The position numbers and the translations under genes are program-made. A model generated the notes under the pieces. It saw nothing but the letters and a program-made list of their open reading frames with translations. It made no database searches and was not told the origin of the DNA. Positions 11,243-49,883 of a stretch of 53,291 nt of DNA are shown in pieces. Position 1 is the stretch's first letter; each line of letters opens with the position of its first letter. The stretch lies in contig NZ_QEES01000006.1 of NCBI RefSeq assembly GCF_003115775.1, forward strand, positions 1 to 53,291, written 5' to 3'. This stretch comes from Cellulomonas sp. WB94 (GTDB lineage: Bacteria > Actinomycetota > Actinomycetes > Actinomycetales > Cellulomonadaceae).

Positions 11243-13890
<2,648 letters not shown>

Positions 13891-24148: not shown

Positions 24149-25338
24149 CCCGGGAGTACCCGCCCCACGTGTACGGCGGTGCCGGTGTGCACGTCACGGA
24201 GCTCGCCGCCGTGCTGCGACGGAGCATCGACGTCCGCGTGCACTGCTTCGACGGTCCGCGCGACGAGGCCGGCGTGACGGGCTACGACGTCCCCGGCACG
24301 CTCGGTGGTGCCAACGCTGCGCTCGCGACGTTCGGTGTGGACCTTCTGATGGCCGACGGGGTGTCAGGCACGGACCTCGTGCACTCGCACACCTGGTACG
24401 CGAACCTCGGCGGTCACCTCGCCGGGCTGCTGCACGGCATCCCGCACGTCGTCTCGGCGCACAGCCTCGAGCCGCTGCGGCCGTGGAAGGCCGAGCAGCT
24501 CGGCGGTGGCTACGCCCTGTCGAGCTGGGCCGAGAAGACGGCGTACGAGGGCGCCGCGGGCGTGATCGCCGTGAGCGCCGGCATGCGCACCGACATCCTG
24601 CGGAGCTACCCGGCCGTCGACCCTGAGCGTGTGCACGTCGTGCACAACGGCATCGACCTCGACGGGTGGCGGCGCCCGACCGGTGAGGCCGCGCTCGCGC
24701 GCGCCGACGCGGTGGTCCGCGGGCTCGGCATCGACCCGGACCGGCCGTCGGTGGTGTTCGTCGGCCGCATCACCCGGCAGAAGGGCCTGCCGTACTTCCT
24801 GCGCGCGGCCGAGCAGCTCCCCGCCGACGTCCAGCTGGTCCTGTGCGCCGGCGCCCCCGACACCCCGGCTATCGCCGCTGAGGTCAGCGCGCTCGTCGAG
24901 GCGCTCCGTGCACGGCGTGACGGTGTCGTGTGGATCGAGCGCATGCTGCCGCGCGAGGACCTCGTGGCCGTCCTCGCGAGCGGCACGGTGTTCGCGTGCC
25001 CATCCGTGTACGAGCCCCTGGGCATCGTCAACCTCGAGGCCATGGCGGTCGGCCTGCCGGTCGTCGGCTCGGCGACCGGTGGGATACCCGAGGTCGTGGA
25101 CGACGGCGTGACCGGGCTCCTCGTGCCGATCGACCAGGTGCAGGACGGCACCGGCACGCCGCTCGACCCCGACCGGTTCGTCGACGACCTCGCGGCCGCG
25201 CTCATCGAGCTGTCGACCGACCCGGCGCGGGCGGCGGTCATGGGTGCGGCCGCACGGCGCCGCGTCGAGGACCACTTCTCGTGGGACGCGATCGGGCAGC
25301 GGACGCTCGAGGTCTACCGGTCGGTGCTCGGGGACTAG
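24130..25338 (+). CDS. glgA: Glycogen synthase / alpha-maltose-1-phosphate synthase (GlgA/GlgM, GT4)
   Basis: A 402-residue GT-B enzyme using ADP-glucose. It begins [25 protein letters not shown] (acceptor-side GGAG motif), with [12 protein letters not shown] and [18 protein letters not shown]. The EX7E signature is in [23 protein letters not shown]. Length about 400 and the [13 protein letters not shown] start match the actinobacterial GT4 type that can act as GlgM rather than the longer GT5 GlgA. GTG 24130 has GAGGGAG upstream. A short open frame starting at a TAGCGT-linked ATG (24092) overlaps its start. Confidence 0.9.
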
Positions 25339-26156
25339 TCGCTCGACCCGCCACGCCCGTCCGGGTCGGGGGCGGGCAGCGTCGCGGCCGACATGGCCCG
25401 GCGCGCGGCCCGGTCGACCTCACGCAGCGCCGTCGAGCGCTGGTCCGCCTGCCACAGGTTGACGGCGCCGCCGTCGTCCGCCGTCGCCAGCGCGACGATC
25501 GCGCGCAGCCGAGCGGCGCTCGCCAGCACGCGCACGCGACGTGCGTCGACCCCTCGGGGCAGCCGCCATCCCGGGTTGCCGTCGCTGCGCAGCGACGCGA
25601 TCGCCTCCGCCGCGTCGGGTCGCCAGCGGGCGACGTCGAGCGCGGCGAGGGCTCGCGTCGCCTGCGTGAGCGCCGTGCGCAGGTCCCGTTCCGCGTCGGC
25701 GAGCGAGCCGACCTGGCCGATGAGCCCCGTCTGCCACTCGGGGACGGTCACGACCTCCCAGCGCACCAGGTGGCCCGGCTCGTACACGCTCCCGAACTCC
25801 TCGACCCTGGGGATCGCCGCGTAGGACCTTGCCCCGGTCGCCACGAGCAGGCACTCGCCGGCCGCCGCCGCGAGCTGACCGATGGCTGCGGGGACACCTG
25901 CGGGGTCGCCCGGCGCGGGCAGGGCCGCTGCGACGATGCGGGCGCCGCCCGCCCAGACGTCCACCAGCTCGGCGAGGGTCGAACCGAGCTCGGCCGTGTC
26001 AGGCGCAGAGACGACGGCGTGCGGCTCGTCGTCGCCCTGCACGGCGGAGACGAGCCGGGCGACCGGCGCGGGGTCGGCGGCGCTGGCCGGACCGAGGTCC
26101 TGGAGCCAGAGCGCGAGCGCGACCGACCGCGGCAGGTCGAGGTCGGGTGAGTCCAT
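25335..26156 (-). CDS. Conserved actinobacterial-type protein of unknown function
   Basis: A 273-residue soluble protein I do not recognise. It is Ala-rich and lysine-free. The N-terminal half looks alpha/beta (VALALWLQDLGP; ARIVAAALPAPGDPAGVPAAIGQLAAAAGECLLVATG), with a conserved-looking YEPGHLVRWEVVTVPEWQTGLIGQVGSL core. The C-terminal half is helical (RRVRVLASAARLRAIVALA; EVDRAARRAMS). ATG 26156 has TAGTTT (26168-26163) six nt upstream. Its stop overlaps the glgA stop by 4 bp, convergent. It is divergent from the ABC ATPase across 66 bp. Confidence 0.75.
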   Translation of the reverse strand: MDSPDLDLPRSVALALWLQDLGPASAADPAPVARLVSAVQGDDEPHAVVSAPDTAELGSTLAELVDVWAGGARIVAAALPAPGDPAGVPAAIGQLAAAAGECLLVATGARSYAAIPRVEEFGSVYEPGHLVRWEVVTVPEWQTGLIGQVGSLADAERDLRTALTQATRALAALDVARWRPDAAEAIASLRSDGNPGWRLPRGVDARRVRVLASAARLRAIVALATADDGGAVNLWQADQRSTALREVDRAARRAMSAATLPAPDPDGRGGSSD

Positions 26157-46867: not shown

Positions 46868-47218
46868 ATGAGCGAGACCACCGAGACAGCGACGCACGGC
46901 GTCCTCCTCTCCGACGTCGCCGCGGGCAAGGTGCGGAGCCTGCTCGAGCAGGAGGGCCGCGACGACCTGCGTCTCCGTGTCGCCGTCCAGCCCGGCGGCT
47001 GTTCCGGCCTGATCTACCAGCTGTACTTCGACGAGCGGGTCCTCGACGGCGACGCCATCAAGGACTACGACGGTGTCGAGGTCGTCGTCGACCGCATGAG
47101 CGTCCCGTACCTGGACGGCGCGACGATCGACTTCGCCGACACCATCGAGAAGCAGGGCTTCACGATCGACAACCCCAACGCCGGCAGCGCGTGCGCGTGC
47201 GGCGGGTCGTTCAGCTGA
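46868..47218 (+). CDS. erpA: Iron-sulfur cluster insertion protein (ErpA/IscA A-type carrier)
   Basis: A 116-residue A-type carrier with the three conserved cysteines C45 (QPGGCSGLIY), C109 and C111 (GSACACGGSF). It delivers Fe-S clusters from SUF to apo-targets. ATG 46868 has GGAGAG upstream at normal spacing. It is monocistronic, with a strong terminator after the stop. The opposing sulfurtransferase genes begin just beyond. Confidence 0.94.
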   Translation: MSETTETATHGVLLSDVAAGKVRSLLEQEGRDDLRLRVAVQPGGCSGLIYQLYFDERVLDGDAIKDYDGVEVVVDRMSVPYLDGATIDFADTIEKQGFTIDNPNAGSACACGGSFS

Positions 47219-47309: not shown

Positions 47310-47555
47310 TCAGCTCGCCGGGATCCCCGGTGGGCCGATCCGGACGTCCATCGCCACCGACCCGTCGGGCAGGTCCTCCACCCGGACGACGTCGTGGCCG
47401 CGCATGCGTGCCCACGCGGGGATGTCGAGTCGCGCGGCAGGGTCCGTCGCCCAGACGGTGAGCACCGTGCCGGGCGCGGCGTCGATGGCCGCGCGGGCGA
47501 GCCTGATCACCGGGATCGGGCACAGCAGGCCGCGCGCGTCGATGACCTCTGGCAT
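47310..47555 (-). CDS. tusA: TusA/SirA-family sulfurtransferase
   Basis: An 81-residue protein with the family signature RGLLCPIPVIRLARA; C12 of the CPxP motif would carry the persulfide. The rest (GTVLTVWATDPAARLDIPAWARMRGHDVV) is the usual two-layer fold. ATG 47555 overlaps the stop of the NifS-like gene (TGATG), so the two are translationally coupled. TusA normally receives sulfur from a cysteine desulfurase; here the coupled partner lacks the PLP lysine. The protein contains no lysine. Confidence 0.9.
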   Translation of the reverse strand: MPEVIDARGLLCPIPVIRLARAAIDAAPGTVLTVWATDPAARLDIPAWARMRGHDVVRVEDLPDGSVAMDVRIGPPGIPAS

Positions 47556-48786
47556 CACAGCCCCCCCGCGCCGAGCGCGTCGCGCACGCGCCGCACCGTC
47601 CCCGGGAGCACGTCGAGGAAGCGGTCGACGCCGTCGCTCGTGACCTCCGGCGGCAGGCACAGGCGCACGTTGCCGTGAGTGAGGACGCCCATCGCGGCGA
47701 GCACGTGGCTCGGTTCGAGCGTGCTCGAGGTGCAGGCGGACCCGGATCCCACCGCGAAGCCGAGCCGGTCCAGCTCGGTGACCAGCGCCTCGCCGTCGAC
47801 GTAGAGGCACGAGAACGTCACGACGTGCGGGAGCCGATCCGTCGCGTCCCCGACGACCTCGACGTCGGGGACCTCAGCAGCCACGCGACGGCGGATGCGC
47901 TCGACGAGTGCCCGGCGGTGCGCGTCGTCGGCCGCGCGGCTCGACCGCGCCGTCTCGAGCGCGACGGCCGCCGCGAGCGCGGCGGGCACGCTCACGCCGC
48001 CGGGTGACCAGCGGTCGGGGTCCTCGGGCCAGTCCGGTGCGCGTCGCACCCGGGCGCGGGTCGCGAGCACGGCGACACCGGGCATCCCGCCCCAGTCGCC
48101 CGGGTCGGCCGCGAGGATGTCCCAGGCGTCCGACAGCTCGACGTGGCCCGCGCTCGCCCCCACGTCGACGAGGAGCGGGACGCCTGCACGCGACGCCGCG
48201 TCGTGCACGGCCTCGACGGGTTGGCGCGTCCCGACCTCGCCGTTGGCGTGCTGGAGTGCCGCGAGGGCGACGCCCGGCGCGCGGACGGCCTCGGCGAAGG
48301 CGTCGGCGTCGACCCGCCCGAGGTGGTCGGTGCCGATCACCACGCGGGCACCGGTGCGACCGTCCCACGGCTGCGTGACGGCGAAGTCGGCGGCGGACAG
48401 GATCGCGGCGCGCTCGACCGCGCTGGCGACCACGTCCCGTCCGGCGCGTCGTCGGCCCGAGCGACGGACCGGACCGCGGCGTGCAGAGCGAGCGTGTGCG
48501 ACGGCAGGAGGTCGATCTCCTCGGTCCGTGCGCTGAGGGCGCCCGCGAGCGACTCCCGCGCGCCCTCCAGCAGCAGGCGTGCCGTGCGGCCCTCGGTGTG
48601 CAGCCGACGCGGGTCGGCCCAGCCACGGTCGACCGCCTCGTCGAACGCGCGACGCGCGGCCGCCAGGATCGGGGCGTGGCCGCCGGCGTCGAGGAAGACC
48701 CGCTCGGAGCGTGCGGCGTCCGCGTCTGCGGCCTCGGCTGCCGGTTCGCGCGAGCGCGCGCCCGACGGCGACTCCTCGGTGCTCAT
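47555..48786 (-). pseudogene. NifS-like cysteine desulfurase homologue, frameshifted and lacking PLP-site residues
   Basis: From ATG 48786 the frame encodes the class V N-terminus (VFLDAGGHAPILAAARRAFDEAV...LHTEGRTARLLLEGARESLAGAL). At CCC 48436-48438 (GGG on the coding strand) a base is missing, and the rest (DVVASAVERAAILSAAD to the end) is in another frame. The repaired protein has about 410 residues. The persulfide loop SGSACTSSTLEPSHVL is intact (Cys codon 47732-47734). The Schiff-base Lys position is Asp (GDWGG, 48095-48097), the PLP-stacking His is Arg (VERAA), and the Gln of VDxxQ is Ala. TACCGT (48798-48793) is 6 nt before ATG. Confidence 0.85.
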
Positions 48787-49007
48787 GCGGGCACGGTAGC
48801 GCGGTCGCGCGTCCGCGCGACCCACCGTCGCGTGCCCCGGAGGGCGCCGAACCGCCTCGCGGTCCTGACAACTTGTCGGCAACGCGCGTCCAGGGGGCAT
48901 CTGAGCGGCTCCGGCGCGCTACGCTGCTCGCAATGAGGACGAAGGTCCCAGGTCGCGGTCGCCCAGACGGGGTGGCTTGTCACCGGGACGTGAGTGAGAG
49001 GTCGTCA

Positions 49008-49883
49008 GTGCACTCGCAGAAACCCCGCCGGTCCCCACGTCCGGCCCTGAAGTGGGCCGGTCTGGTCGCCGCTGTCGCCGTGGCGCTGACAGGCTGCTCA
49101 GCCTCGGTCCAGCGCGGCTTCCTGCCTGGCAGCTCGAGCGCCGAGGTCACGAACCAGACCGGGCGTATCACGCACCTGTGGGTCGGGTCGTGGACGGCCG
49201 CGCTGATCGTCGGTGTCATCGTGTGGGGCCTGATCCTGTGGTGCGCGGCGGTGTACCGCAAGCGCAAGGGCGACGAGACGCTCCCGGTGCAGCTGCGCTA
49301 CCACGTGCCCCTCGAGGTCATGTACGTGATCCTGCCGATCCTCATGGTCGGGGTGCTCTTCTACTACACCGCGCGGGATGCGTCGGCGATCAACGACACG
49401 AGCGCCAAGCCGGACCTGACGGTCCAGGTCGTCGCCAAGCAGTGGAGCTGGGACTTCAACTACCTCGACTCCGACGTCTACGACACGGGCGAGCACGCGA
49501 AGGCGGTCGGCAACCACGGGGTGCTGGCCGACCAGGTCACGCTCTACCTGCCGGTCAACGAACGCGTCGAGTTCGTGCTCAACTCGCGTGACGTCATCCA
49601 CTCGTTCTGGGTCCCGGAGTTCCTGTACAAGCGCGACGTGATCCCGGGCCGCACGAGCAAGTTCCAGATCATCCCGCAGCAGGTCGGGGAGTATCGCGGC
49701 AAGTGTGCCGAGCTCTGCGGCGAGGAGCACTCGGGCATGCTCTTCAACGTCAAGGTCGTGACGCGCGCCGACTACGACGCCCACATGCAGGAGCTGCGCG
49801 CGAAGGGTCAGACCGGAGCCCTCGGGCTCGAGTACAGCCGCTTGCAGGACCTGCAGAGCGCCACGCAGGGGAGTGGGAGCTGA
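49008..49883 (+). CDS. ctaC: Cytochrome c oxidase subunit II (aa3 type)
   Basis: A 291-residue lipoprotein-type subunit. The signal has a basic start and lipobox LTGC (Cys30), followed by two helices ([39 protein letters not shown]). The periplasm-side cupredoxin domain holds the CuA ligands: a His in [11 protein letters not shown] and the set C-x3-C-x3-H-x2-M in [25 protein letters not shown] is the conserved aromatic patch. GTG 49008 has GAGAGG 6 nt upstream; an in-frame ATG 48933 with TACGCT (48920-48925) 7 nt before it is a leaderless alternative adding 25 residues. First gene of ctaC-ctaD-ctaF. Confidence 0.93.

Follow-up and report, generated by a model that had tools for sequence, protein, structure and literature searches.

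The desulfurase-like gene described here encodes an IscS/NifS-type homologue in which the PLP lysine and the residues surrounding it have been lost while the cysteine of the mobile loop has been kept. Sequence comparison and structure prediction indicate that the family retains the fold type I desulfurase architecture, remains under purifying selection and is coupled to TusA in most of the loci that have lost the lysine (Lys-less loci). As the most likely explanation, which we hold at about an even chance, we propose a widespread bacterial PLP-less desulfurase homologue that acts through its Cys loop, as a persulfide carrier or docking platform for TusA. Judging from its residues, the protein would be unable to desulfurate cysteine.

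The gene lies in a 53,291-nt stretch of DNA from Cellulomonas sp. WB94 (the window), and the features of the locus are collected in Table 1. The tusA-like gene sits directly 3′ of the desulfurase-like gene, the stop codon of the latter overlapping the start codon of the former in the minus-strand sequence TGATG, which bears out the coupling to TusA that an earlier note on this DNA had proposed. By its PF01206 match and its CPxP acceptor cysteine the smaller protein belongs to the TusA family. The larger one carries the domain of the class V desulfurases, with PF00266 scores of 70.8 bits for the window part and 94.7 bits for the orthologue L025, whose numbering is used below for alignment columns and for Asn154, Glu156 and Asp180. 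The best NCBIfam equivalog model, TIGR03402, gave 142.2 bits against a cut-off of 530.75 when searched with the 297-aa main part only, and the cut-off was thus missed.

Table 1. Features of the desulfurase-like locus and its neighbours in the window.
Feature	Position	Strand	Remarks
tusA-like gene, 81 aa	47310..47555	(-)	PF01206 69.7 bits (cut-off 28.6); intact CPxP acceptor motif, DARGLLCPIPV
desulfurase-like gene, main part (297 aa + stop)	47555..48448	(-)	Aminotran_5 PF00266 70.8 bits; without PLP Lys, with Cys loop
desulfurase-like gene, N-terminal part	48449..48786	(-)	ATG at 48786, to ~48457; frame differs from main part
erpA-like A-type Fe-S carrier gene	46868..47218	(+)	PF01521 57.7 bits; convergent neighbour, context, outside the claimed unit
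ctaC, cytochrome c oxidase subunit II	48968..49883, start approximate	(+)	divergent neighbour, context; PF00116 72.6 bits for reading frame 48579-49880
Arg codon at PLP-stacking His site (E. coli IscS His104)	48410..48412	(-)	VERAA where active enzymes have VEH
Ala codon at Gln site (E. coli IscS Gln183)	48155..48157	(-)	VDVGAS where active enzymes have DxxQS
Asp codon at PLP Schiff-base Lys site (E. coli IscS Lys206)	48095..48097	(-)	GDWGG where active enzymes have HK
loop Cys codon (E. coli IscS Cys328)	47732..47734	(-)	Cys in 162/162 loci compared

To number the active-site residues, the sites of the window protein were mapped onto E. coli K-12 IscS, of which we take His104 and Gln183 to have roles in PLP binding. 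The replacements of Lys by Asp, of His by Arg and of Gln by Ala that the earlier note had read from the sequence were all found, next to an intact GSGSACTSSTLEPSHV loop (GSGSACTSS), and the protein read from 47558-48448 of the minus strand contains no lysine at all. The Schiff-base lysine and the PLP-holding residues of class V cysteine desulfurases of the NifS/IscS type are therefore missing, and the mobile loop with the persulfide cysteine is present. According to the E. coli work, Lys206 forms the PLP aldimine and Cys328 carries the persulfide (PMC2854127). The SufS encoded in the same window (12066-13403) served as an internal control and displays every active-site residue (EAEHH, DACQS, SGHK and GHHCAQ), as had been noted before. 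The caution that the product of 25335-26156 is also devoid of lysine proved justified (0 Lys counted).

The protein had been presented as a repaired one. Its residues are as described, but in the assembly the gene is split into two frames by a break at ~48457 (between 48425 and 48470), and we analysed the window copy as unmended pieces together with its relatives. Six copies from congeners are open across this point. Two congeners are uninformative on the extreme N-terminus: the contig carrying the closest one (L010, 91% identical) begins within the gene, and in L015, which may have a separate anomaly further upstream, the profile match opens only at position 28. Past the break, the 297 codons shared by the window copy and L010 gave a dN/dS of 0.134, which argues that the break either arose in assembly or is very recent.

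We then looked at the distribution of the gene. It is present in each of the seven genomes of the genus, among them that of the window. A scan of named genomes returned at least 488 relatives, and the best 80 of these plus the genus loci made up a set of 87 orthologues with at least 50% identity, in which the PLP site is Lys in 25, Asp in 57, Ala in four and Gly in one, and the loop Cys is kept in all 87. Named members without the lysine include Cellulomonas, Oerskovia, Promicromonospora, Isoptericola, Cellulosimicrobium, Sanguibacter, Actinotalea, Flavimobilis and Demequina; the lysine is kept in Kribbella, Microbispora, Actinoplanes, Catellatospora and Motilibacter. Profile searches hit 144 of the 150 family genomes at E ≤1e-60, a threshold permissive enough to include IscS paralogues. 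At E ≤1e-80 they hit 74 of 297 genomes in the order and 199 of 394 in the class, and at E ≤1e-90 they hit 21 of 198 in the phylum. For residue reading we fetched 40 loci from the family and order, three of which (L111, L118 and L139) repeat named loci, and 46 from the class. The PLP lysine occurred in none of the former and in 30 of the latter, proportions that are not those of nature, since the query itself is Lys-less. Loss of the lysine is thus fixed in the clade, as the earlier note had asked of it, and close relatives with HK at this site, which would have spoken for pseudogene decay, did not appear: HK or RK is confined to more distant orthologues. Two records, L028 (a metagenome-assembled genome entered as Proteobacteria bacterium) and L035 (Sphaerisporangium cinnabarinum), group in the tree with rows of Cellulomonadaceae and Promicromonosporaceae and are probably mislabelled or contaminated.

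Across the 162 loci compared, the PLP site is occupied by Lys in 50, Asp in 73, Ser in 18, Ala in nine, Gly in five, Glu in four, Thr in two and Met in one. Over the same loci the loop Cys and the Arg that follows the loop are invariant (162 each) and the equivalent of Asp180 is kept in 161, so the loop has indeed been conserved while the lysine was lost. After dereplication, which kept rows less than 85% alike, 34 Lys-bearing and 94 Lys-less rows were left. The stacking His is present in 34/34 Lys-bearing rows; in the Lys-less ones the site is Arg in 69, His in 19 and another residue in six, that is, His has been lost in 75 of the 94. Loss of this His consequently characterises most Lys-less rows without being fixed in all of them, and the pattern as a whole suggests that the lysine went first and the His afterwards. 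Replacement of Gln by Ala, which had been counted as a third sign of PLP loss, turned out not to be diagnostic: the site varies among Lys-bearing orthologues too, with Ala in 7/34 dereplicated rows, which makes it weak evidence.

Seven columns are fixed to at least 95% in Lys-bearing rows and to less than 70% in Lys-less ones (L025 positions 12, 62, 69, 99, 101, 203 and 206). Five of them fall in PLP-site motifs, namely the phosphate-loop Gly (69), two residues beside the His (99 and 101) and the Lys site (203 and 206), while the shifted columns 12 and 62 lie outside these motifs. Ser203 has become Asp in 67 of the 94 Lys-less rows, and His205, which 30 of the 34 Lys-bearing rows have, has mostly given way to Ala, Gly, Arg or Thr in the Lys-less ones. 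A substitute lysine elsewhere in the protein was considered and rejected, given that 80 of 114 Lys-less domains contain no lysine whatsoever and that no column has Lys in more than four of the 94 rows. In L162 and L166 a lysine stands one residue before the PLP site; we counted both as Lys-less, which is disputable.

Next, we asked whether selection on the Lys-less copies had been relaxed. Nei-Gojobori dN/dS values were calculated for pairs 82-98.5% alike, which share members and are thus not independent, and some of which are repeated by identical copies (L012 = L025, L068 = L139). The 40 Lys-less pairs had a median of 0.145 (0.089-0.264) and the 53 Lys-bearing pairs one of 0.143 (0.070-0.233), with no sign of relaxed selection in the former, and values of 0.09 to 0.21 were obtained for 10 pairs in which both members are without TusA (two being repeats of an identical copy). 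This parity, together with the invariance of the loop Cys, led us to reject for the family the simple pseudogene decay that the earlier note had named as the refuting outcome.

In the tree, the rows from the window's order that have no PLP lysine fall into a single group (78 rows, SH-aLRT 93; 17 rows and 99 in a smaller tree). The deeper branches around it are mostly Lys-bearing, and the outgroup consists of Lys-bearing IscS-type paralogues. Other Lys-less rows of the class are scattered. Parsimony counted seven changes of the Lys on 132 rows and six on 52 rows, of which the starred branches force only two and one, respectively, and a tree with a single Lys-less clade was not rejected (AU p 0.206). 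For these reasons we limit the claim to one certain loss of the lysine and several more that are probable.

The partnership with TusA extends well beyond the window. A TusA on the same strand, immediately 3′ or fused, accompanies 54 of 55 Lys-bearing and 87 of 114 Lys-less loci, and in the Lys-less loci the TusA reading frame opens within three bases of the upstream stop. The expected conservation of tusA adjacency therefore holds in most Lys-less loci and fails in 27 of the 114 (26 of 113 distinct ones, L139 being a duplicate of L068), against one of 55 among the Lys-bearing loci. This more frequent loss of TusA could mean that the coupling has loosened. The Lys-less loci with no adjacent TusA nevertheless keep the loop Cys, from which it follows that TusA cannot be the sole partner. 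The proposal that the protein is a persulfide acceptor or scaffold for TusA accordingly agrees with most loci and cannot describe its whole function. Natural fusions, in each of which Pfam detects both domains, occur with Lys replaced by Ala (L100), with Lys replaced by Ser (L163) and with the lysine kept (family code f37, e.g. L180; Lys in 16/16 rows of alignment A3). The CPxP motif is present in 53/53 separate TusA proteins beside Lys-bearing genes and in 86/87 beside Lys-less genes. The exception is found at L113, a diverged paralogue that is the second copy in genome G297 and has an altered Cys loop; that the loop and the CPxP of the downstream TusA have changed together is a small sign that both partners work together.

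We also searched 11 genomes of TusA-less Lys-less loci for a TusA. One of them (G781) gave a strong match and each of the other 10 a single weak match, at best a candidate TusA partner (E 2.5e-7 to 4.6e-5; Pfam's cut-off exceeded in seven of these 10). The TusA-face residues of E. coli IscS did not separate TusA-bearing from TusA-lacking loci: the equivalents of Asp52 and Arg55 are mostly kept in both, and those of Trp45 and Glu49 in neither. In the window's genome itself two more weak TusA-like matches were seen, L209 (G000:C7:60263-60415) and L210 (G000:C5:113821-113973). Both are below Pfam's cut-off, show no CPxP by eye and adjoin Lys-bearing desulfurase-like genes; inspection by eye suggests DsrE-type proteins in the frames near them, plus a flavoprotein at L210. 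Among loci with sufficient DNA on the other side of the unit, ctaC (PF00116) is the upstream neighbour in 34 of 38 that are Lys-bearing and in 86 of 93 that are Lys-less. This link is not special to the Lys-less form, and the role in copper-site maturation suggested earlier is not specifically supported by the head-to-head ctaC, its only basis, as Lys-bearing orthologues have the same neighbour.

An AlphaFold2 model of the Cellulomonas cellasea orthologue (48 rows) reached a pLDDT of 92.9 and a pTM of 0.92, and only residues 323-330, corresponding to the Cys loop, fell under pLDDT 50, as expected of a mobile loop. Foldseek placed M. tuberculosis IscS (4isy) first and human NFS1, A. fulgidus IscS and E. 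coli IscS with TusA (3lvj) within the top 27, with TM values of about 0.9 to the M. tuberculosis, A. fulgidus and E. coli IscS structures. The model of the natural fusion L100 (pLDDT 87.6, linker under 50) has a pTM of 0.76, for which reason the arrangement of its domains is unsure.

Taken together, these observations are consistent with an IscS/NifS-type protein that would have given up PLP chemistry and retained the mobile cysteine loop as its working part. The loop Cys would take persulfide sulfur from a putative donor, either one of the intact desulfurases of the genome or another source of sulfane sulfur, and TusA, docked as E. coli TusA is on IscS, would take the sulfur from the loop. 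Lineages that have no TusA would have to use this loop for another acceptor or as a ligand for a cluster. The more specific form of this proposal, a PLP-independent sulfur relay in the window's order and further lineages in which the former desulfurase feeds TusA and, in some lineages, another acceptor, is put forward tentatively, at clearly less than an even chance. That grade covers jointly a dedicated persulfide carrier or docking platform and a rebuilt pocket that would charge the loop Cys from a non-cysteine donor.

The alternative that fares best, possible although clearly less probable than a sulfur relay, is that the loop Cys carries no sulfur and completes the [2Fe-2S] site of a partner. 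That partner could be SufU, an A-type carrier (ErpA, encoded next door, for one) or a different protein. The precedent, which the earlier note did not name, is A. fulgidus IscS, the best PDB sequence match of our profile (4eb5), which has Asp at the same column as the window protein; a published account states that it is without desulfurase activity because the essential Lys is Asp, and that through its Cys it ligates the [2Fe-2S] cluster on IscU (PMC7585200). Cluster ligation would also account for the TusA-less lineages, and of the loci with enough sequence, 79 of 111 Lys-less ones have erpA no more than 1.2 kb downstream, against one of 54 Lys-bearing ones, a difference that is confounded with taxonomy. 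However, erpA in the window is on the opposite strand, and the same-strand partner in most loci, fused in some, is TusA and not a scaffold.

A second possibility, which we regard as unlikely, is that the emptied PLP pocket has been rebuilt for another small molecule and the protein is a new kind of enzyme or sensor. While the residues around PLP have changed, Asn154, Glu156, Asp180 and the Arg after the loop have stayed, each kept in 93 or 94 of the 94 Lys-less rows; the Asn, kept in all 94, is the neighbour of E. coli Asn155 and not Asn155 itself, and the Arg is R347 of L025 (residue 356 of E. coli IscS is Ser). The replacements are patterned too: of the dereplicated rows, 56 of the 60 with Asp or Glu at the Lys site carry Arg in place of the His, versus 13 of 34 with other replacements. 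The conserved residues may however be structural, and the acidic-Arg pair, possibly a salt bridge that fills the empty pocket, belongs mostly to one clade, outside which Asp occurs without Arg (4/60 rows). We know of no ligand for such a pocket.

We find it still harder to believe that the protein remains a PLP desulfurase, with a lysine supplied from elsewhere, with PLP held without a Schiff base, or as a heterodimer in which an intact paralogue supplies the residues. The active sites of class V enzymes lie at the dimer interface, Asp180 is kept, and L162 and L166 have their lysine one residue earlier, all of which would suit such an enzyme. Against it, the majority of Lys-less domains have no lysine to offer (80/114), Ser203, His205 and the phosphate-loop Gly have gone along with His104 (lost in 75/94 rows), and A. 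fulgidus IscS, with the same change, is described as inactive (PMC7585200). Least of all do we credit a functionless, drifting family of which the split window copy is the end stage: the frame break, the possible anomaly of L015, the TusA missing beside 27/114 Lys-less versus 1/55 Lys-bearing loci and the combination of altered loop and CPxP-less TusA at L113 would fit it, but dN/dS equals that of Lys-bearing orthologues even where TusA is gone, the window part itself gives 0.134, and every locus compared has kept the loop Cys.

Returning to the PLP-less homologue that acts through its Cys loop, its closest known counterpart is A. fulgidus IscS (structures 4eb5 and 4hvk; 4r5f is titled a D199K mutant in the Foldseek list). 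Both are IscS-type proteins with the loop Cys kept and the PLP Lys changed to Asp at the same column, which places the window protein with the A. fulgidus type of PLP-less IscS. In contrast to the archaeal protein, whose partner is IscU, the proteins described here come from Actinomycetota and have TusA or no partner gene next to them; iscU was not found at the window locus, where tusA follows directly and erpA, on the opposite strand, is the closest Fe-S gene. A. fulgidus IscS also keeps His at the His104 site, which most actinobacterial Lys-less rows have lost. Lys-less rows are nested among Lys-bearing actinobacterial orthologues, which argues, in trees that do not contain A. fulgidus, that the actinobacterial loss of the lysine was probably independent of the archaeal one. 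Methanosarcina acetivorans IscS1 is likewise without the PLP Lys according to the same account (PMC7585200), and PLP-less IscS proteins are therefore already known in archaea.

E. coli IscS with TusA (3lvj) has the same fold, a long mobile Cys loop and TusA as partner, and the hand-off from IscS to TusA is known structurally (PMC2854127). It is however a PLP-dependent, active enzyme with Lys206, His104 and Gln183, three residues that the window protein does not have. The Lys-bearing actinobacterial orthologues (Kribbella, Microbispora, Actinoplanes and the fused f37 form, L180) share the coupling to TusA and mostly the ctaC neighbourhood, and differ from the Lys-less form in keeping the PLP Lys and the stacking His. 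Automatic annotation tends to label such proteins cysteine desulfurases, a label that is probably wrong for this Lys-less clade. Among the matches listed in our literature search, the titles and abstract openings gave no description of a PLP-less desulfurase in Actinomycetota, and we found no account of a bacterial, order-wide, selected PLP-less IscS family coupled or fused to TusA. The archaeal precedents are few; here a comparable loss is seen across many bacterial families, under normal purifying selection and with Lys-bearing sister lineages at hand, and the Lys-less family thus offers a clean natural experiment, in culturable genera, on what becomes of the IscS fold and its Cys loop in function once PLP chemistry is gone.
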